From positions 883,501-947,500 of the forward strand of contig NZ_CP062167.1 of assembly GCF_014844055.1 (NCBI RefSeq): DNA of 64,000 nt, in the 5' to 3' direction. Each line of letters starts with the position of its first letter. Positions within the stretch are counted from its first letter, which is position 1. A program made the position numbers and the translations under genes. This DNA is from Aureimonas sp. OT7 (GTDB taxonomy: Bacteria > Pseudomonadota > Alphaproteobacteria > Rhizobiales > Rhizobiaceae). A model generated the notes under the pieces. It worked only from the letters and a program-made list of their open reading frames with translations, did no database searches and was not told the origin of the DNA. Of this stretch, positions 5,309 through 64,000 are shown piece by piece.

Positions 5309-6419
5309 GGAAGGCGCGGACGTCGTCGGGCAGCACGTCCCGTGCGATGAAGGACTGGCCGATGCCGCGCGTCAGGATGAAGGTGAGCCGCCCCCGGGAT
5401 ACCTTCTTGTCCTGTGCGATCCTGTCCATCAGCATATCGACGTCCAGGGCGGGCCCCGGTATGGCGTCGATGCGGGTGGGAAGCCCCACGGCCTGCAGAT
5501 GGCGCTCGACCCGCGTGACATCCTGCCCGTCGATCAGGCCCAGGCGATGCGAGAAACGGTGCGCCAGCGCCATGCCGATGGCCACCCCCTCGCCATGCAC
5601 GAGGCGCTCGGGGTCGTAGCGGACGGCCGATTCCAGCGCGTGGCCGAATGTATGGCCGAGGTTGAGCAATGCGCGGTTGCCGTCCTCGCGCTCGTCGTCG
5701 GCAACCACGGCGGCCTTCGCCTCGCAGCACCGTGCCACGGCCTCGATGCGCGCCGGCCCCCCTGCGAAGATCGCCGCATGATTGGCTTCCAGCCATTCGA
5801 AGAAGGCCGGCCTGTCGATGAGTCCGTACTTGACCACCTCCGCATAGCCGGCGGCGAATTCCCGCATCGGCAGTGTCGAGAGGATGTCCGTGTCGGCCAG
5901 CACCAGCGCCGGCTGATGAAAGACGCCGATGAGGTTTTTGCCGCGCGGGGAATTGATGCCCGTCTTGCCGCCGACAGACGAATCCACCTGTGCCAGCAGG
6001 CTGGTCGGAAGCTGGACGAACTGCATGCCGCGGCGCACGATGCCGGCGGCAAAGCCGGACAGATCGCCGATGACGCCGCCACCGAGCGCGATGACGGCAT
6101 CGCCGCGCTCCAGCCGCGCGGCGAGAAGCGCGTCGACGAGCTGCATCAAATGGTCGAAGCTCTTGGTGGTTTCGCCTGCCGGGAGAACGATGGATACGTG
6201 GCCGATGCCGGCCTCGTCGAGGGCTGCGGTCAGGCGGTCGAGATGAAGCGGCGCGACATGCGCGTCGGTCACGATGGCGGCGCGGATGCCGGGCAGCCGC
6301 GACGCGATCTCTTGTCCGGCGCGGGCCACCAGACCGCCGCCGACGAGAATGTCGTAGGAGCGTGCGCCGAGCTCGACATGCACCTTGCGCGTATCCGCGC
6401 CTGCATCGGAAACGATCAT
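5280..6419 (-). CDS. aroB: 3-dehydroquinate synthase AroB
   Basis: Second enzyme of the shikimate pathway: turns DAHP into 3-dehydroquinate using NAD and a divalent metal. The 379-residue sequence shows the NAD-binding GGGVIGDLSGFAA motif, the substrate-binding VDSSVGGKTGIN motif, KYGLI, and metal-ligand LNLGHTFGHALE. Its ATG overlaps the aroK stop (ATGA), the usual alphaproteobacterial aroK-aroB pair. The last 29 bp overlap the convergent DUF1275 gene. Confidence 0.97.
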   Translation of the reverse strand: MIVSDAGADTRKVHVELGARSYDILVGGGLVARAGQEIASRLPGIRAAIVTDAHVAPLHLDRLTAALDEAGIGHVSIVLPAGETTKSFDHLMQLVDALLAARLERGDAVIALGGGVIGDLSGFAAGIVRRGMQFVQLPTSLLAQVDSSVGGKTGINSPRGKNLIGVFHQPALVLADTDILSTLPMREFAAGYAEVVKYGLIDRPAFFEWLEANHAAIFAGGPARIEAVARCCEAKAAVVADDEREDGNRALLNLGHTFGHALESAVRYDPERLVHGEGVAIGMALAHRFSHRLGLIDGQDVTRVERHLQAVGLPTRIDAIPGPALDVDMLMDRIAQDKKVSRGRLTFILTRGIGQSFIARDVLPDDVRAFLSAETAAAA

Positions 6420-56043: not shown

Positions 56044-56181
56044 CGGCGATTCACAGGTGAAGTCTGGAGCCCCGACCGAAGCGCCGTGCGAGCCGCATTC
56101 ACATTGCCAGCAGGCCGGCGGCAGAGCTGACAGCGGTCTTGCTTCGCCCGGGTGTCGGCGGTCAGTCGTCATGGGGAGAAC

Positions 56182-56198
56182 TGGTGGAGCTGAGCGGG
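56182..56198 (-). other. Putative attachment site: 3' end of tRNA-Ala
   Basis: On the minus strand this reads CCCGCTCAGCTCCACCA, the T-arm end, acceptor strand, discriminator and CCA of an alphaproteobacterial tRNA-Ala. The rest of a tRNA is absent: the bases to the right diverge at once. It lies 97 bp before the integrase start, so it is the likely host-phage junction left by integration at a tRNA 3' end. The intact tRNA would be at the far right end of the element. Confidence 0.65.
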
Positions 56199-56250
56199 GA
56201 CTATCCTTGAGGCCCGGCCAGCCTGCAAACTGGACAATACAAGGGGTCTC

Positions 56251-56285
56251 GGGTACTCAAAGCGGGTACGCAATCGGGTACGCAG
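56251..56285 (+). repeat. Three direct repeats before the integrase gene
   Basis: GGGTACTCAA (56251), GGGTACGCAA (56264) and GGGTACGCAG (56276), 13 and 12 bp apart, ending 9 bp before the integrase ATG. Candidate arm-type integrase sites or an autoregulatory operator. The 326-bp stretch 55969-56294 otherwise holds only the promoter and att site listed. Confidence 0.7.
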
Positions 56286-56294
56286 GGCTCCAGA

Positions 56295-57716
56295 ATGGCA
56301 CGCGGAAAGTCTACAGACACAAGCTTTCTCGAAAAGAAGGATGGTCGATACCGCGTCGTGGTTGCCGTACCGCGAGCCCTTCACGCTGAGCTTGGCACAA
56401 AGCTGAAGCGTCCACTAGGAACGGACAGTCTCGCCGCAGCCAATGTGCTGAAGTGGCAAGTCGTGGCCGAACTAAAGGCCATCATCAATGCCGCCCTGAA
56501 GCGAGGCGGCCGAGACCCGCTCGCTCGTGAAGCCCTAGCAATGGCGGCTGAACGGCGGCGGGCGCAGACCCATGAAGACCTGCAAGCCCTAGACGACGCG
56601 GTGAGCATTCGGGCGGAGCAGATTGCCGGCGCATTCCAAACTGTCGATCACCCTCTTCTAGGCGAGGTGGAGGAAGCAGTTGACCCTTCACGGCTTCGGG
56701 ATGCCCAGGCGTTCACCGCGCTCGCGCTAGGCAACGCTACACCAATTGCACATCACCATTCCGACTACCTTGCCCAACTCACCGTCAAGAGCCGCACACG
56801 GGCAGATGATGAGCGGGCCATCCGCTACCTTGAAAACTGGTGCCACCGGAACCGTGTGGCCGCCACTTTGCAAGCGATCACCCGAAGGACCGCAACGCGC
56901 TTCATGGATGACATGGGGTCTGTGGCGGCGGGGCTGAGCAACATCACGCTTCAGAAATACATCAACCGCCTCTCCGCCTACTGGAAGTGGCTACTCCGTC
57001 GCGAGTACGTGGAGGCAAATGTATGGGCCGGCCTATCGCTGCCTAACCAGTCCCCGAAGCACGATGAGCGCGAGCGCCCTTTCACGGCGGAGGAGATGGT
57101 CAAGCTCTTCGCCGGACCCGCGCCGACTGCCTTGCGAGACGTGATGCTTATCGGCGCTTTGACGGGCGCACGGTTGGACGCGGTGGTGGACCTCAAGGTC
57201 AAGGACTGCGCGGACAGTCTATTCCTCTTCAAGCCTCAGAAACGGGAGCCGGCACCCCGAGCCGTTCCGATCCACTCCGCATTGGTTGACCTCGTAGCCC
57301 GCAGGACTGATGGCAGGAAGCCGGACGACGACTTGTTCCCGGAGTGGCCGGCTCCGAAGGCAAACAGTCTCCGCGAGCGATCCTTCAAGACCTCCAACGC
57401 CTTCACCGCCTATCGCCGCGAAGTTGGGGTTGATCAGGTGGTCCAAGGCAAGCGCCGCTCGCTCGTCAATTTCCACTCATTCCGCCGTTGGTTCATCACG
57501 GAAGCCGAAAGGGCAGGGCAGCCCGAGCACATCATCGCTGCCGTGGTTGGTCATAAACGGCAAGGAATGACACTCGGCCGGTACTCGGCAGGTCCCGCGA
57601 TTGCGCAAGCCCGTGAGTGCGTGGAGGCCGTCCGACTGCCGAAAGAAAAATGCATAGAGACCCCACCTGTCGAAGAGGCCGGCGAAGCCCCGGAGCTTTC
57701 GCCCCGGAGCGTCTGA
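56295..57716 (+). CDS. Phage-type tyrosine integrase
   Basis: A 473-residue site-specific recombinase. N-terminal DUF6538-like arm-binding part (YRVVVAVPRALHAELG), a core-binding SAM-like domain, and a catalytic domain with Arg in LTGARLDAVVDLK, HSFRR, VVGHKRQGMTLGRYS (LGH-type His and Tyr nucleophile). It starts 97 bp from the tRNA-Ala fragment and reads into the element, so it is the integrase of the element. Its codon use is less GC-rich than that of the host genes to the left. Confidence 0.92.
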   Translation: MARGKSTDTSFLEKKDGRYRVVVAVPRALHAELGTKLKRPLGTDSLAAANVLKWQVVAELKAIINAALKRGGRDPLAREALAMAAERRRAQTHEDLQALDDAVSIRAEQIAGAFQTVDHPLLGEVEEAVDPSRLRDAQAFTALALGNATPIAHHHSDYLAQLTVKSRTRADDERAIRYLENWCHRNRVAATLQAITRRTATRFMDDMGSVAAGLSNITLQKYINRLSAYWKWLLRREYVEANVWAGLSLPNQSPKHDERERPFTAEEMVKLFAGPAPTALRDVMLIGALTGARLDAVVDLKVKDCADSLFLFKPQKREPAPRAVPIHSALVDLVARRTDGRKPDDDLFPEWPAPKANSLRERSFKTSNAFTAYRREVGVDQVVQGKRRSLVNFHSFRRWFITEAERAGQPEHIIAAVVGHKRQGMTLGRYSAGPAIAQARECVEAVRLPKEKCIETPPVEEAGEAPELSPRSV

Positions 57717-57779: not shown

Positions 57780-58580
57780 CTAGTAATCGCCTTCGCCTTC
57801 CTCCTCCGAGACCATCCCCCGAAGCTCAGCCATCACGGCAGGCAGTTTGCGGCCGAAGTGGATCGCCAAGGCCCGTGCTGCAATCTCCGGGTTCCGCGCG
57901 AGGCCACCCGCGAAGGTCCGGGCCATGGTGTCGGCGTGGCGTTGCGCCGTGCACTCCAGCCAATCCTCCCGCTCGTCATCCGTCATGTCCGCAGGGTCGG
58001 CACCCTTCGCCCTGAGCCTTGCTTGCCACCAAGCGACATAGGCGAATGCCTCCACACCAAGTTGAGCCATTGCGCTCCGCATGTAGGCAACCGTACGCTC
58101 CGCCACGCCGGTGCTCTGCGCGATGGTAGCCTTCGAGTAGCCGCCAAGTAGGACATACCGCCAAGCCGCATCTGCCCGCTCTGTGGCAGACATAGGAAGC
58201 TTGCTCTTGTAGTTCTCCCCGCACGCCGCCAGCACGGCCTCCCGCAAGGTCCCCGCGAAGTACCGCACTGCTACTTCCTCGCGGCCGACCATCTGGTGAG
58301 CGGCAAGGCGGTGGTGTCCATCCACAAGCACGGCAACACTGCCAACCTGTACGACGAGGAGAGGGGGGAAGACCGCCCCCCCTGCCAACGCCTTCGCCAG
58401 TTCCCCAGCATGGGCCTCGCTAATCGGCCGACACTGGAAGAGGTCCGCGTGGGGTTGGATGGCTGAGACCGGGAGTATGTCCGGCAAGGGCTGGTAGGTG
58501 GTCTCACCCGATGCCATCGCCTCAAGCTTTGCCAGAATGTCGGCCGGCGCGAAGCCTTCCGCCGCGTGCCCGGCGCTCAT
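57780..58580 (-). CDS. ParB/Srx-domain protein of the phage-like element
   Basis: A 266-residue protein with a ParB/sulfiredoxin-type N-terminal domain (ILPVSAIQPHADLFQCRPIS, then VLVDGHHRLAAHQMVG, the phosphate-binding box) and a helix-turn-helix (YSKATIAQSTGVAERTVAYMR). The C-terminal half is unassigned. Phage members act in partition, packaging-linked regulation or DNA modification. The ATG at 58580 overlaps the RNase H stop (ATGA) and has GAAGGGG upstream; another ATG lies 18 bp earlier. Confidence 0.8.
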   Translation of the reverse strand: MSAGHAAEGFAPADILAKLEAMASGETTYQPLPDILPVSAIQPHADLFQCRPISEAHAGELAKALAGGAVFPPLLVVQVGSVAVLVDGHHRLAAHQMVGREEVAVRYFAGTLREAVLAACGENYKSKLPMSATERADAAWRYVLLGGYSKATIAQSTGVAERTVAYMRSAMAQLGVEAFAYVAWWQARLRAKGADPADMTDDEREDWLECTAQRHADTMARTFAGGLARNPEIAARALAIHFGRKLPAVMAELRGMVSEEEGEGDY

Positions 58581-59239
58581 TCCCCTTCGCGGCTCCATAC
58601 AGCCATCCGCTGGCGCTGCGCTTCGGTCCTGGCGAGGAGGTCCGCGTGGGCATTCTCGCGGTCGTTACCATGCGCTTGGACCCATTCAAACTTGATGGCG
58701 GGCCGCAGGTCCACGAGCGCAAAGAGTTCGGCCCAAAGCACGGCATTCTTCACAGGCTTGCCGGTCGAGTTCCGCCATCCCCGCTGCTCCCAAAGCTTAC
58801 GGTGCACATTCACGCCATCCACGATGTAACGGCTATCACTCCTCAGGATACCTTTCGCACCTTCAGGCAGTATCTTGAGCGCCTCGATACTAGCCCGAAG
58901 CTCCATCATGTTGTTGGTGGCGTAAGCCTCGCCGCCCACCTTCTCCACGCGCTTCGCCTTGCCGCCGATGATGATGGCAGCCCAACCGGCTGGGCCCGGA
59001 TTGTCGAGCGATGAGCCATCCACGTACACCGTAAAGGTGTCAGACTGCGGCTTCCCTCGTGTCGTGCGCTTGCGCAGGGCCTTTGGCATTTGTCGCCGTG
59101 CCTCATCCTCAGGAACCGGGATGTCGAAGGACACGAGGAAAGGGCCGGGTGGTACGATGGGCACGCCGGCCGGAAACTTCTGGTTGTTATCTATCTGCTT
59201 CTCCTTCGCGGGACACCTGCCCGCGTTCTGATGGGTCAT
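58577..59239 (-). CDS. Phage ribonuclease HI
   Basis: A 220-residue protein with a disordered N-terminal 65 residues and a full RNase HI domain: YVDGSSLDNPGPAGWAAI, MMELRASIEAL, LRSDSRYIVDGVN and WVQAHGNDRENAHADLLAR, giving Asp-Glu-Asp-Asp and the catalytic His. It removes RNA from RNA-DNA hybrids during phage replication. Co-transcribed with the ParB-like gene. Confidence 0.93.
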   Translation of the reverse strand: MTHQNAGRCPAKEKQIDNNQKFPAGVPIVPPGPFLVSFDIPVPEDEARRQMPKALRKRTTRGKPQSDTFTVYVDGSSLDNPGPAGWAAIIIGGKAKRVEKVGGEAYATNNMMELRASIEALKILPEGAKGILRSDSRYIVDGVNVHRKLWEQRGWRNSTGKPVKNAVLWAELFALVDLRPAIKFEWVQAHGNDRENAHADLLARTEAQRQRMAVWSREGE

Positions 59240-59294: not shown

Positions 59295-62200
59295 CTACTG
59301 TCCGGCCCCGAAGACGCCGCCGAGTTCCACTCCGAATGCCTGCCCGACGCCCGGCCGGCCGGCTGCCTGTTTCTCCCGCCGCATCTCGCGGTAGGCATCA
59401 CGGACCTCAAGCCGACTCTTTATGAACGCCTGCCGCACCACGGGGTCCGCTTTGAGCCGCTGAAGGGCGGCCCTGCGATACTGCGTGAATGGCTTGGACA
59501 GGATGTTGAGCTTGGTACCTTTGGTGTTGATGTCACCGTCCGGCGCGTTCTGGTATGCTTCGGTGGCCATGATCTTCCCCACCACCTGCTTGAGGGACCG
59601 CTGCGCATTGGGTAGATGGCCACTGTACTGCTGGTAGACCTCGTAGGCGTTCCGCCCGTCTTCCATCGTGATGTCCCGGAGGTCTACGCCGGCCTGGGGC
59701 TGGGGGCCAACCCTCAGCGGGGCCGCACCGTTCTCCAGACCCAGCCGCACCATCTCGCTGTCCACAAGGCTGCTCTCGTCGCTGGACCACAGCCCCTTGC
59801 GCGTGACGATAGGATCGCCGAAGGCATCGTACCGCGCCGGCAACGTCTCGCTGATGCCGGGGATGGTGTTCATGATGCGGTCCACTACATCCCGCGCCTC
59901 TCGGAGATGGGGGTCTGGGTTGAACTGTCGCAAGCCTGCCGAGAAGGGGACGAAGTTGGCAACCATCTGGCCGCCCACCGGGCCAATCCGCTCCGGGTCT
60001 TCGAGCACCTCCAGCATCGAGGAGACGCCAGTTAGGAACGTCTTGTCTCGAAACTGTTTGGACAGGGCAACGGATAGAGCCCCGATAGCAGACCCTACAT
60101 GCCCTAGAACCGTGCGCTCGTCGGCTTCCTCACCCAAAGCCGCTATGCTGTCCTGAAGGTCCGCCACCATGCCGAACGGGATGGCGATGGGGTCAAGACG
60201 ATTGTACGGGATGTAAGTCTTGGTGCCGTCTGCGTTCTGCTTAACTATGGAGTAGGGCTGCCAGCCGGTCGCCACTAATTCCTGCCGGAGCTTATAGTCT
60301 CTTGGCCCGCCTCCCGTGATGCTGCCCTGCGACACCATGAAGGCCGCTGTGCCCATGAAGAGCGTGCCCATGGCCATTTGGCCCACCGCCTGCGCCTGCG
60401 CTTCACGGCCCATCGCCCCACGTAGCATGTCCCGGTATTCGGCCTGCGCGAGGTTGAGCACCGGGGTCATCTTCCAGCCGTAACGGATAACGTTGGCGGG
60501 TGTCTTTACGAACGGCAGGACGAACCGCAGTTCGGGGTGGTTGTGAACCAGGGACTGAAGCGATTTGCCTATTGTCCTCGGCAAAAGCTCCTGTTGGAAC
60601 GTCGCAATGTTTGCTTCGCGGATGGCGTCGGGGTCGGTGCCGCGCCCCAAGTCGTCAAAGGCATTGGCCAGCTTGTCGGCAATGTGCTGGCGCATGAACG
60701 CTCGGCCCTCCTCGCCCTTGAGGCCGCTTGCCGCCGCCCGTTCAGCCGCCTCCATGTGCGCCCGAGCCATGACTTTGGAACGGTAGACTGTCTGCTTCAC
60801 AAGCTCATCCACGAAGCCCAGCGTGCGCGTGGGCAACTGCCGGCCTGTCGCCACAAGCAAGGCATTGTGCAGAACGTTGCCGGTCGAGTCCCACGGCTTC
60901 CAAGCCAAGCGAGGCATCATGTTGCCGGCCGCGCCCCGGTACAGTTCAGAACGCTGCGGAGCGAGCACGCTGTCCCCTTGCAGGAAAGCCTTCTTGGCAA
61001 GGTCGAAGCCTTCCCGGAATGCGGTGCCCATGTAGGTGTACTGCCGCACGGACTGCTTGAAGATGGCGTTGCTGGCGGCGTCCCCTCGTGCCGCCCCATA
61101 GGCAGACCCCAGAATGCGCTCCATCGGCCGCGCACCCACCATGTAGGCGTTGGTTACGGCGTTGATGAAGTGGGTCTTTGGCCCGGAGAGAAGGCCGTTG
61201 ATGTAGAGGGTGGACAGGCCATCAACCGCTTTTCCCCACCACGTGGGGTTAGCCGCCTTGGCAAGACCCTGAGGAGACCCATTGGTATTCGAGATAACCT
61301 CTACCAACTGGTCGCCATCCATGCTCTGGAGCTTGGAGACATCCTCAGGGTTAAGCTTGAACTCCCGCCGCATCCTGCGCACCGCCCGGCCCGCGTTGGC
61401 CGTGATGGACCGCGAGGCAGCATAGGTGGAGGACGCAAGGCTCAGGCGCTTCTTGAGTTCCGTAATGGCAGCTTCCCGCCCACCGAACTCGGAGAAGTCC
61501 CCAATCTTGATCCGCTGCGCCAGGGCGTAGGTGTCCTGGAGCATGCGCGAGGTGACGAGGTAGCCGGCCTCCATGTCGGCAACCATACGGCTGGCCATCT
61601 TGCCCGACTGCTGGAGCATGCCAATGACGGACGCGGGGTCATCATTGAATAGCTGCGCTCGCTGGTTGATGAGCCGCTGGACCTTGGCGTCTGTCAGGAT
61701 GTCCCCGCCCTTGATGGCGTCTATGCGCTCCTCGGCGGTGTCCACCACACGGGCCATGAAGTCGTCCAGGTCGGCTTCCTGATTGAGCTTCCCGTAAGGA
61801 ACGCCTTCACCCTTGCCGAACGTGTGGCCCTTCTCGATGGCCTCATACCATCCGCCGTGGGCCGCCATGGCCTCCGCGTCTGCCTCCATGCCTCGGAGCA
61901 CCTCTTCGGTGTTCTCATCGCTGAGCCGGATGGCAGGCTGTGCGGAAGGCGTGGGGGTGCCTTGAAGGTCCACTCCGGCAGCGTTGGCCGCGTCGGTGGG
62001 GGACTGCGCAACCTGGACCTCAATGTCATCCACCATGTTGGCGGGCGGAGAGGTGGGTGCTTCGGTGCCCCCGAGACCACCGGCCTCCAAGTCCACCTCC
62101 CGGATGGCGTCTTCGGGGTCCACGCCCACTCGCACATCGCTCGCCTGGTTGGGGACCACCACCTCATCCAGCACAATGGGATCATCGGGCGTGCCGGCTC

Positions 62201-63176
62201 CGGCAGGCATCGGCTCGTCTGCCAATGCGGCCCGCGCCTCTGCTTCACCCTGAGCGGCAGCCCTTGCGGCTCCCTCGGCATCACCGTTGCGTAGGGCCTT
62301 GTAGACCTTAAGCCCGGCCCCGAGCGTCCCGATGATGGCGATGTCCAGCCCGATGCTTTCCAGCGCGGCTTTCATCCGGCCTTCCGCTGCGCTGTCCGTA
62401 GGGTCGGCCGCGAGGTAGCGGGTGACGGGGTTGGACAGGGGGCCACTCTCGATGAGGTTGGCTAGGCGCTCCTCGTGGGGATCGAACGCAACGGCACCAA
62501 CGGTGGCAGCCTTTGCAACTTCCACACCGGCCCGGCCTGCACGGGTGGCATCGAGCGAGGCATCTACAGCCTTCAGCCCTTTGCCAAACCATGGGAGTGC
62601 CTTGGCGGCGGAGGTGAGCTTGCCCAGGCCATACATGCCAGCGGCGAACTGGCCAATAGACACGGAGACCCCGGCGATGATGCCTTGATCCTTGGTTGCC
62701 TGAAGGCTCTTCTCGAAGTCCTGCCGCATCTGCGACTTGTCTTCGTCCTCGGGCTCATCGAAGAGGAAGTCCTTGGTCTCCAGCACGGAGTTTACGGCAC
62801 CGCCAAGGAGACCCTCAGCGGCGGCATCTGCGCGGCCTACGCGGCCATCGTCTGCGGCGGCATAGTGCGCCTTCTCCTCCTCGCTCAGGTCCCCAGCGGC
62901 ATTGCTGAAGTCCCGAGCGGGAGGGGTGGACGGGGTGGCGGCTTGCGGTTCAGGCTTGGCAGGCTCTTCCTTAGGGGCGGGCGAGGGGTCGGCCTTGGCT
63001 GAGACGGCCTGCATCGCTTGCTCAAGGAGCGCGGGGTCTAGAGGGGTAGCGCCGCCGGGAGGACGGGATGAGGTGAGTTGAAAGGCCTGTTCCAAAAGGT
63101 CTGCATCGAGATCATCGGCAGTCACAGGGGCACGGCGGGTGGCGGCCAGTACAGCTTCGAAATCTTCAAGGTTCAT
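59295..63176 (-). CDS. Large (1293 aa) phage virion protein, internal/ejection protein-like
   Basis: A 1293-residue protein. The first 150 residues are low-complexity and acidic/Pro-rich; residues 350-480 again; the C-terminal 700 are helical with stretches such as LPFVKTPANVIRYGWKM, RDYKLRQELVATGWQPYS and YNRLDPIAIPFGMVADL, seen in podovirus internal virion proteins. The size is close to T7 gp16 (1318). No lysozyme domain is visible. It would be ejected into the host with the DNA. No capsid or tail genes lie beside it in the window. Confidence 0.7.
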   Translation of the reverse strand: MNLEDFEAVLAATRRAPVTADDLDADLLEQAFQLTSSRPPGGATPLDPALLEQAMQAVSAKADPSPAPKEEPAKPEPQAATPSTPPARDFSNAAGDLSEEEKAHYAAADDGRVGRADAAAEGLLGGAVNSVLETKDFLFDEPEDEDKSQMRQDFEKSLQATKDQGIIAGVSVSIGQFAAGMYGLGKLTSAAKALPWFGKGLKAVDASLDATRAGRAGVEVAKAATVGAVAFDPHEERLANLIESGPLSNPVTRYLAADPTDSAAEGRMKAALESIGLDIAIIGTLGAGLKVYKALRNGDAEGAARAAAQGEAEARAALADEPMPAGAGTPDDPIVLDEVVVPNQASDVRVGVDPEDAIREVDLEAGGLGGTEAPTSPPANMVDDIEVQVAQSPTDAANAAGVDLQGTPTPSAQPAIRLSDENTEEVLRGMEADAEAMAAHGGWYEAIEKGHTFGKGEGVPYGKLNQEADLDDFMARVVDTAEERIDAIKGGDILTDAKVQRLINQRAQLFNDDPASVIGMLQQSGKMASRMVADMEAGYLVTSRMLQDTYALAQRIKIGDFSEFGGREAAITELKKRLSLASSTYAASRSITANAGRAVRRMRREFKLNPEDVSKLQSMDGDQLVEVISNTNGSPQGLAKAANPTWWGKAVDGLSTLYINGLLSGPKTHFINAVTNAYMVGARPMERILGSAYGAARGDAASNAIFKQSVRQYTYMGTAFREGFDLAKKAFLQGDSVLAPQRSELYRGAAGNMMPRLAWKPWDSTGNVLHNALLVATGRQLPTRTLGFVDELVKQTVYRSKVMARAHMEAAERAAASGLKGEEGRAFMRQHIADKLANAFDDLGRGTDPDAIREANIATFQQELLPRTIGKSLQSLVHNHPELRFVLPFVKTPANVIRYGWKMTPVLNLAQAEYRDMLRGAMGREAQAQAVGQMAMGTLFMGTAAFMVSQGSITGGGPRDYKLRQELVATGWQPYSIVKQNADGTKTYIPYNRLDPIAIPFGMVADLQDSIAALGEEADERTVLGHVGSAIGALSVALSKQFRDKTFLTGVSSMLEVLEDPERIGPVGGQMVANFVPFSAGLRQFNPDPHLREARDVVDRIMNTIPGISETLPARYDAFGDPIVTRKGLWSSDESSLVDSEMVRLGLENGAAPLRVGPQPQAGVDLRDITMEDGRNAYEVYQQYSGHLPNAQRSLKQVVGKIMATEAYQNAPDGDINTKGTKLNILSKPFTQYRRAALQRLKADPVVRQAFIKSRLEVRDAYREMRREKQAAGRPGVGQAFGVELGGVFGAGQ

Positions 63177-63803
63177 GGGGTTGGCACCTAGTTCGGCTGG
63201 GTGGTTGCCCGTGGTGGGTGGCGGGCATGACGAAAAACCCGCGAGCGCACAGAATGCGGCGGGCTAGTCGTGGGCGGATATGGTGGTGACGGATGGAGGC
63301 CTTAACGGCGGCAGGCAGGTAGGGCGCGAGGAGTACCGACAAGTACGGTCATTGAGTAGCACCGCATTGATGGTATCCTTCGCACGAGGGCGTGCGTGAA
63401 ACTCGCTGTCATTGAACTGTCAGTCGGCGGAGGAGGATTTGGCGGCTTGTCATCGAGACGCCTAACTGCGTCGGCTCCTCATCGAGCTACCTAACTTCAT
63501 GCTTCCTCTCAAAGAGAAGGGAATTGACTGTCCCGTGGTCCGGGGCTGTCTTAGAGCGGCCTAACTGCAAGGTGGTGCTCATAGACAAGGATAACTTCGC
63601 TAGTCTCTCAGAGAATAGCCTAACTTTGCCCCTGCACGCCCGGAATGGCGGCCCCGGATTGCTCATTGAAGTACCTAACTGCAAGCCGCGTCCTAGCGCG
63701 AGGGGAACTGCCCGGCATCGCTGCCTTGCTCATAGAACTGCCTATCTCCTCATTGAGGAGGATAACTCGCTCATCCCAGAGGACGACCGCTCATATTCGC
63801 TTC
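63177..63803. other. Gene-free stretch with short-repeat array
   Basis: 627 bp between the large virion protein and the second recombinase without a convincing gene. The left part (63233-63263) holds a terminator; the right part (from about 63450) holds a degenerate direct-repeat array listed separately. A 115-residue open frame at 63524-63871 has repeated LIExPN-like peptides simply because it reads the DNA repeat. Confidence 0.7.
63233..63263 (-). terminator. Terminator upstream of the virion protein gene
   Basis: CCCGC (63238-63242) pairs with GCGGG (63259-63263), and CGCA (63246-63249) with TGCG (63255-63258), leaving a small bulge. On the minus strand TTTTT (63237-63233) follows. It would stop transcripts coming from the second recombinase side before the virion gene. 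Confidence 0.7.
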
Positions 63804-63824
63804 TCATAGAGCGGCCCAACTATC
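63450..63824 (+). repeat. Array of about 11 degenerate direct repeats, consensus TCATNGAGNNNCCTAACT
   Basis: Units start at 63450, 63479, 63509, 63549, 63579, 63608, 63663, 63730, 63750, 63771 and 63804, all on the plus strand. In most, TCAT and CCTAACT (or GATAACT, CCCAACT) are exactly 11 bp apart. Start-to-start distances are 29, 30, 40, 30, 29, 55, 67, 20, 21 and 33. Copies 63509 and 63771 are weak. Weaker TCATTGA copies may exist at 63349 and 63409. Confidence 0.85.
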
Positions 63825-64000
63825 AGCTGGCCGTCTTGCCGCTCGCGCTACCAACTCCATGCCGGCCCTAAGATCGTCATGGCTCACATGCGTGTACCGC
63901 TGTGTGGTCGTCACGCTGGTGTGCCCCAAGAGGCGCTGGACCATCCGCAGGTTTCCCGTTGCCCGGACCAGCCGCGTTGCCGCAGTGTGGCGCGTGTCGT
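63804..64000 (-). CDS. Second tyrosine recombinase, 5' part outside window
   Basis: The last 65 codons of a recombinase read from the minus strand: [28 protein letters not shown] with the LGH motif, and [11 protein letters not shown] with the Tyr nucleophile. The end [10 protein letters not shown] stops at TGA (63806-63804), inside the last unit of the repeat array. It is a different protein from the integrase at 56295, and could belong to the same element or to a second one nested beside it. Confidence 0.85.

Follow-up and report, generated by a model that had tools for sequence, protein, structure and literature searches.

What is the array of short degenerate repeats that lies between the start of a gene for a T7 gp16-type virion protein (63176) and the stop codon of an integrase gene, int2 (63804), in the 64,000-nucleotide stretch of Aureimonas sp. 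OT7 DNA analysed here (the window)? The first-pass annotation had described same-orientation copies with a constant distance between their two halves and a variable linker, and both points are borne out, with nine units, a tenth and two degraded copies. On the plus strand, the pattern TCATNGAGNNNCCTAACT with up to 3 mismatches has 11 matches in the 64-kb window versus 1.93 expected and a maximum of 5 across 100 shuffles; nine of the 11 fall within about 63449-63821, all on the same strand. A unit matrix made from the nine pattern-matched array units scores 25.5-28.8 on these units, and nothing else in the window exceeds 9.0. A combined matrix brought up the tenth unit (63507-63526), which then took rank 1 with matrices built without it. 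On the minus strand, the unit reads AGTTAGGNNNCTCNATGAG; its copies are the following.

63348..63366, minus strand: degraded unit (unit-matrix score 6.2)
63408..63426, minus strand: degraded unit (unit-matrix score 4.3)
63449..63467, minus strand: promoter-like unit AGTTAGGCGTCTCGATGAC (pattern, unit matrix, register test)
63478..63496, minus strand: promoter-like unit AGTTAGGTAGCTCGATGAG (pattern, unit matrix, register test)
63507..63526, minus strand: promoter-like unit of another sub-type, CAATTCCCTTCTCTTTGAGA (rank 1 of 26,506 with the G006 matrix, and also with the G395 matrix)
63548..63566, minus strand: promoter-like unit (pattern, unit matrix, register test)
63578..63596, minus strand: promoter-like unit, AGTTATCC sub-type (pattern, unit matrix; rank 2 with the G395 matrix)
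63607..63625, minus strand: promoter-like unit (pattern, unit matrix, register test)
63662..63680, minus strand: promoter-like unit, the weakest against the coliphage matrix at rank 1,032 (pattern, unit matrix)
63729..63747, minus strand: promoter-like unit (pattern, unit matrix, register test)
63749..63767, minus strand: promoter-like unit, AGTTATCC sub-type (pattern, unit matrix; rank 2 with the G395 matrix)
63803..63821, minus strand: promoter-like unit overlapping the int2 stop codon (rank 8 of 26,506 with the coliphage matrix)

The repeat is concentrated at this one place. A looser pattern (up to 2 mismatches) has 38 matches in the 4.18-Mb genome, nine of them in the array and 29 as scattered singles, as compared with 27 matches for a reversed-pattern control; there is no second cluster of units in the 4.18-Mb genome, on which ground a transposon end was rejected. 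An RNA family was also rejected, as no match reaches the gathering score and three remain below threshold. A similarity search with the array returned no phage match and one 30-bp match in plasmids. The proposal that the units lie on one face of the helix survives in part. There is some regularity at a period of 10.0 bp (p = 0.051 for 10 units, 0.005 for 12 units including the degraded ones and 0.001 for the first six units alone), where neither the period nor the subset of units was chosen beforehand, and none at the B-DNA period of 10.5 bp (p = 0.66 for 10 units and 0.82 for 12) or, for 10 units, at 11.0 bp (p = 0.40).

The minus-strand units resemble promoters of the T7 family and were therefore tested with data from outside the arrays. 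A coliphage matrix, free of any array sequence, was assembled from 17 T7, 14 T3 and 13 SP6 promoters; the T7 and T3 promoters are those annotated in public records, and the SP6 sites were found by consensus because the SP6 record annotates no promoters. The register test covered positions -17 to +3 of 10 units from the element in the window's own genome (G000), five from a second genome (G006) and two from a third (G395). Out of 102 combinations of offset and strand, the top rank went to register 0 on the promoter strand in all three elements, which places the units in the register of the T7, T3 and SP6 promoters. The joint register score was 3.83, with the next best register at -9.3, and none of 3,000 column-permuted matrices reached 3.83 at any register (their best was 3.37).

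Unit by unit, the coliphage matrix places five G006 units at ranks 1, 2, 3, 5 and 50 of 24,762 and two G395 units at ranks 4 and 13 of 25,962. On G000 alone it is only moderately strong, with nine units at ranks 8, 11, 23, 55, 117, 147, 156, 238 and, for one unit, only 1,032 of 26,506. Matrices built from one element also find units in the others. The G395 matrix ranks three G000 units 1, 2 and 2 and the other seven from 18 to 251, and it ranks the G006 units 1, 2, 3, 33 and 39. With the G006 matrix, the G395 units rank 1 and 3, and the G000 units rank 1, 4, 24 and 26, then from 87 to 741. The G000 matrix places the G395 units at ranks 2 and 6 and, in the weakest of the cross-tests, the G006 units at ranks 25, 35, 66, 90 and 649. 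Single coliphage-matrix scores of similar size are also found elsewhere in 12-22-kb loci, and clustered matches fail to set the arrays apart from 56 control loci, among which some lower-GC stretches equal or exceed them. Because neither single scores nor clustering discriminate, the case for promoters rests on register, agreement across elements, and position. Overall, the sequence supports the array as a set of promoter-like sites for T7-family single-subunit RNA polymerases. The T7-type phage context suggested by the annotation thus stands, while its parallel with the T7 CCTAAAG heptamers does not; a polymerase promoter on the opposite strand fits instead.

The array departs from coliphage promoters in the positions that determine specificity. 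Its mean information at -12 to -8 is 0.72 bits, versus 1.84 for T7, 1.92 for T3 and 1.54 for SP6, and nine of its 10 units carry a distinct 5-mer there (3 of 17 in T7, 2 of 14 in T3 and 6 of 13 in SP6). The near-invariant -12 to -8 core expected of promoters that share one polymerase is therefore missing from the array, which keeps -17 to -13 (1.48 bits) and -7 to -1 (1.41 bits). A review (PMC11617373) assigns the discrimination between T3 and T7 to -11, -10 and -12, that between SP6 and T7 to -9 and -8, and a minor-groove contact to -17 to -13. One reading of the varied positions is neutral drift, with the true reader making no contact there. Alternatively, with the general contacts kept and -12 to -8 varied, one satellite could sense or exploit the polymerases of several helpers, and the array would act as a bait of multiple specificities for several T7-like phages; we put this forward tentatively, as a possibility well short of an expectation.

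The units lie within an element of about 13.3 kb, bounded by a 21-bp repeat at a tRNA-Ala gene. Its landmarks are as follows.

56178..56198, no strand: left copy of the 21-bp repeat (attL candidate), beside int1
56295..57716, plus strand: tyrosine integrase int1 at the left end of the element (PF00589)
57780..58598, minus strand: ParB-like protein (phrog_1033, E 1.2e-12; no Pfam match)
58577..59239, minus strand: RNase H (PF00075, E 1.7e-32)
59295..63176, minus strand: T7 gp16-type internal virion protein, 1293 aa (phrog_6651, E 2.8e-53)
63236..63265, minus strand: hairpin followed by U5, a host-type terminator candidate between the array and the gp16-like gene
63804..64000, minus strand: C-terminal portion of int2, the second tyrosine integrase (full gene at L126:1304-2455)
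C1:952929-952949: right copy of the 21-bp repeat, overlapping the 3′ end of the tRNA-Ala gene

The gp16-type gene is the first gene downstream of the array, and the units point into it and onward to the genes for RNase H and the ParB-like protein. Its product has tblastn matches in 59 phage records, and many of the 40 listed are annotated as internal virion protein D. The hairpin has a fold z-score of -2.87, with 3 of 200 shuffles folding equally well; a scan with the terminator consensus found one site versus 0.7 expected, which is not above chance. Beyond these, the element encodes an excisionase-like protein, a resolvase, a Rha-type regulator and an AbiTii defence protein, the last being an anti-phage family member at the right end of the element (L126:5912-6877), and two hypothetical proteins of 185 and 209 aa with no Pfam or PHROGs match. 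A 77-bp direct repeat (97% identical; L126:4806-4882 and 5400-5476) brackets the gene for the Rha-type regulator and has a 75% match at L177:5983-6044, next to the resolvase side of the related element in G006; it is possibly a regulatory or recombination site. Further, GGGTACGCA-type repeats occur at both element ends (window 56250-56290 and L126:6850-6875) and are candidate arm sites of int1. Taken as a whole, the element combines an integrase and flanking repeats with what looks like an incomplete virion gene set, judged by the portal (PF12236), which is absent from the genome.

Relatives of these genes recur in other genomes. With the own genome counted, a gp16 relative is present in 2 of 101 relatives and, across the order, in 11 of 397 genomes; ParB-like relatives occur in 16 of 201 genomes, and int2 relatives in 21 of 201 genomes at E 1e-20. 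Partly shared backbones of integrase, resolvase, RNase H, ParB-like protein and virion-type gene are found in G006, G395, G106, G507 and G496; in G395, G507 and G496, an int1 relative is paired with a gp16- or gp15-type gene. One stretch of G006 combines int2, the ParB-like protein and RNase H with a weak resolvase match and a virion-type protein of 824 aa; we call this last protein gp15-type from its location near gp16 in G030 and G335 and not from annotation. Five related sites, including TAATTCCCTGCACTATGAGGAG, occupy the gap there that separates the virion-type genes from a 175-aa ORF. They aim at a 241-aa ORF with no family match, followed by a gene whose relative neighbours gp16 in the G030 prophage; three of the five overlap a possible 91-aa ORF (L177 10920-11195) with no Pfam match. 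G395 has two sites, TAATANCNNNCTCTATGAGA. Orientation towards the genes is seen in G000 and G006, while in G395 opposite-strand ORFs stand between the pair and gp16.

Across 15 related loci scanned (G006, G395, G335, G482, G488, G205, G011, G159, G106, G016, G507, G496, G231, G456 and G276), the motif set is present in two, with five units in G006 and two in G395; the other 13 have only scattered single sites among their top-scoring positions. When other loci were scanned with the satellite matrix, five matches within 600 bp occurred only in G006, and two viral loci, both chosen for unit-like pattern matches, reached four. In two elements, those of G507 (L351:6156-6175) and G496 (L352:6028-6047), the combined matrix scores highest on a lone CTCTATGGGG-type sequence that lies on the strand of the int1-relative match, about 25-70 bases upstream from it; it is possibly one promoter of the same family.

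These observations together make it probable, in our judgement, that the array consists of about ten tandem T7-family polymerase promoters, plus two decayed ones, that fire leftwards in a satellite element of T7-like phages. The best surviving rival, which we regard as unlikely, keeps the promoters and changes their owner, treating them as leftovers in a decayed T7-like prophage. It would account for the presence of a T7 internal virion gene together with the absence of matches to a T7-type polymerase and portal; against it, the large ORFs are open, the flanking repeat at the tRNA-Ala gene is clean, the partly shared backbones recur in five other genomes, and promoters in the phages examined are dispersed, with no tandem array of ten. 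The satellite reading too draws on the missing polymerase and portal: a polymerase with PF00940 is absent from G000, G006 and G395 and present in one of 15 genomes (G030), and in 8 of 394 genomes of the family; the PF12236 portal has no match in eight element-bearing genomes and two in G030. G030 carries a T7-like prophage with polymerase, whose gp16 is 40% identical, and which served as a control: 15 T7-like promoter matches are dispersed along the coding strand versus 2 on the opposite strand, under a consensus derived from that same coding strand. The same prophage region contains a long collagen-like GGTCCTCAAGG coding repeat (L158:18400-19400).

Repeats readable as T7-like promoters also occur elsewhere. 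Rhizobium phage RHEph21 and the G632 prophage each have seven copies of a promoter-like repeat, and L254, a 47-kb viral contig whose gp16 relative is 39% identical, contains ACCCTACCACATTACACAC in around ten dispersed copies, a sequence that probably serves a T7-like polymerase as promoter. Read as T7-like promoters, the repeats of RHEph21, G632 and L254 have a distinct specificity core in each. The remaining phages and prophages examined show no clear promoter family among their top three repeats, and repeats in CRP-804, Pasto and RHph_Y1_20 could be promoters. In the T7-like phage Pasto (L248:281-450), CCCATCGGCACC repeats directly follow the terminal repeat and recall the T7 heptamer arrays.

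A search for a helper phage with a promoter of the form AGTTAGG...ATGAG, also written AGTTAGG...CTCNATGAG, found none; the pattern occurs in 117 viral stretches, with one match in each of the 80 listed, and the promoter consensuses derived de novo from phages differ from the array form. A paired-unit pattern returned three genome contigs and one viral contig with one strong unit each, the viral contig having a second copy 42 bp away inside an apparent coding repeat. The G395-type pattern has a single match in each of 45 viral loci. The G006-type pattern matches five viral contigs, three of which share the start GATAATTCCCTT and the end GCTATGAG; these were read as a coding motif and rejected.

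A second rival, also improbable by our estimate and slightly more so, is an operator, iteron or partition array, in which an element or host protein (ParB-like, Rha or Xis) binds asymmetric 19-bp sites and controls transcription, replication or segregation. Such site arrays are common in plasmids, and many asymmetric sites in one orientation do lie here near a ParB-like gene; yet the exact T7-promoter register found in three elements speaks against this rival, and the loci of ParB homologues in G011, G159 and G106 have no array. The iteron parallel drawn in the first-pass annotation finds no support: no Rep, and hence no adjacent Rep initiator gene, was recognised among the scanned element proteins, and the motif lies upstream of virion-type genes in G006. 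The 185- and 209-aa hypothetical proteins may leave room for an unrecognised initiator.

Far less credible is the idea that the units are arm-type sites of the neighbouring integrase int2, in an attP-like region. Integrase arm sites are direct repeats and the 3′ end of int2 borders the array, but the reading was rejected as the array is not conserved beside int2 relatives: the G006 int2 relative (62%) has no array in its flank, none is present in the flanking ~1.5 kb of the other int2 matches that were scanned, and the related G006 array stands upstream of virion-type genes at a distance of about 2 kb from int2, while the flanking repeat and the candidate GGGTACGCA arm repeats adjoin int1. The least likely rival, and a very improbable one, is a coding repeat or chain of mini-ORFs with the unit ATG as start codon and the TAG of AGTTAGG as stop, for although ATG is present in seven of 10 units and some frames terminate in the following unit, it was rejected on reading frames that differ among units and an ATG missing from three of 10 (63548, 63607 and 63507), while third-codon positions are conserved equally with the others and the two array ORFs of at least 60 aa (115 aa on the plus strand, 65 aa on the minus strand) have no Pfam or PHROGs family match. 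The annotation's view of the array as non-coding and protein-recognised is upheld as a reading of the sequence.

Returning to tandem promoters in a satellite, we infer that the element lives as a satellite on T7-like phages, with the polymerase of a helper phage turning on the element's virion operon. In the resident state, the units would not be read by the host polymerase and the element would be silent; the hairpin with U5 could block read-through from int2. Upon infection by a T7-like phage, the phage polymerase would initiate at as many as ten sites and run leftwards, leading to production of the gp16-type protein, RNase H and the ParB-like protein. The element's own ejection protein would enter the virion and could steer the DNA delivery of mixed virions. 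T7 and T3 promoters prime replication at their origins, and the T3 record annotates an origin right after promoter phi1.05; array transcripts might likewise prime replication, which the RNase H would fit. If true, this would be a new route of satellite sensing, in which the awaited cue is a foreign RNA polymerase and not a repression-lifting protein of the helper. This would also point to satellites of T7-type phages, provide natural promoter sets for how single-subunit polymerases read -12 to -8, and account for a lone ejection-protein gene inside a tRNA-integrated element.

The closest known counterparts of the units are the late promoters of T7, T3 and SP6, which share with the array the register of the -17 to -13 block, C at -5, mostly C at -7, mostly AT at -3/-2, a purine-rich start, and an orientation facing virion genes. 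The array differs from them in having ten sites in tandem instead of dispersed singles, G at -1, and diverse bases at -12 to -8. The T7 CCTAAAG heptamers beside the terminal repeats are likewise degenerate same-strand repeats in a T7-type context, but their unit, length and genomic place differ from those of the array, and no terminal repeat is seen here. As a small integrative element with flanking repeats, an integrase, AbiTii and no portal match, the element resembles PICI, P4-like, PLE and PICMI satellites. We know of none among these that is induced via a single-subunit RNA polymerase of its helper, and a T7-type internal virion protein is, to our knowledge, unusual in a phage satellite.

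PLE is reported not to be replicated by the T7-like phage ICP3 (PMC7145576). The open-access literature, as far as it was searched, yielded no description of satellites that belong to T7-like phages or use a single-subunit polymerase, which is weak evidence as few subscription journals were covered; a term search of PMC10111431 gave no hit to T7-like or Autographi. Temperate T7-like phages have been described, and the LUZ100 paper reports T7-like prophage elements across Pseudomonas and phage-specific promoters (PMC10134795). A parallel to the proposed mechanism comes from virophages: according to PMC6723459, genes of Sputnik, Guarani and Mavirus bear the late promoter of their giant-virus host, and the Mavirus provirophage is latent until superinfection by CroV. 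Unlike the element described here, these are eukaryotic viruses, and their promoters stand before single genes and not in one array. A bait for the polymerases of several helpers, if that is what the array is, would be a bacterial counterpart of this virophage promoter trick.
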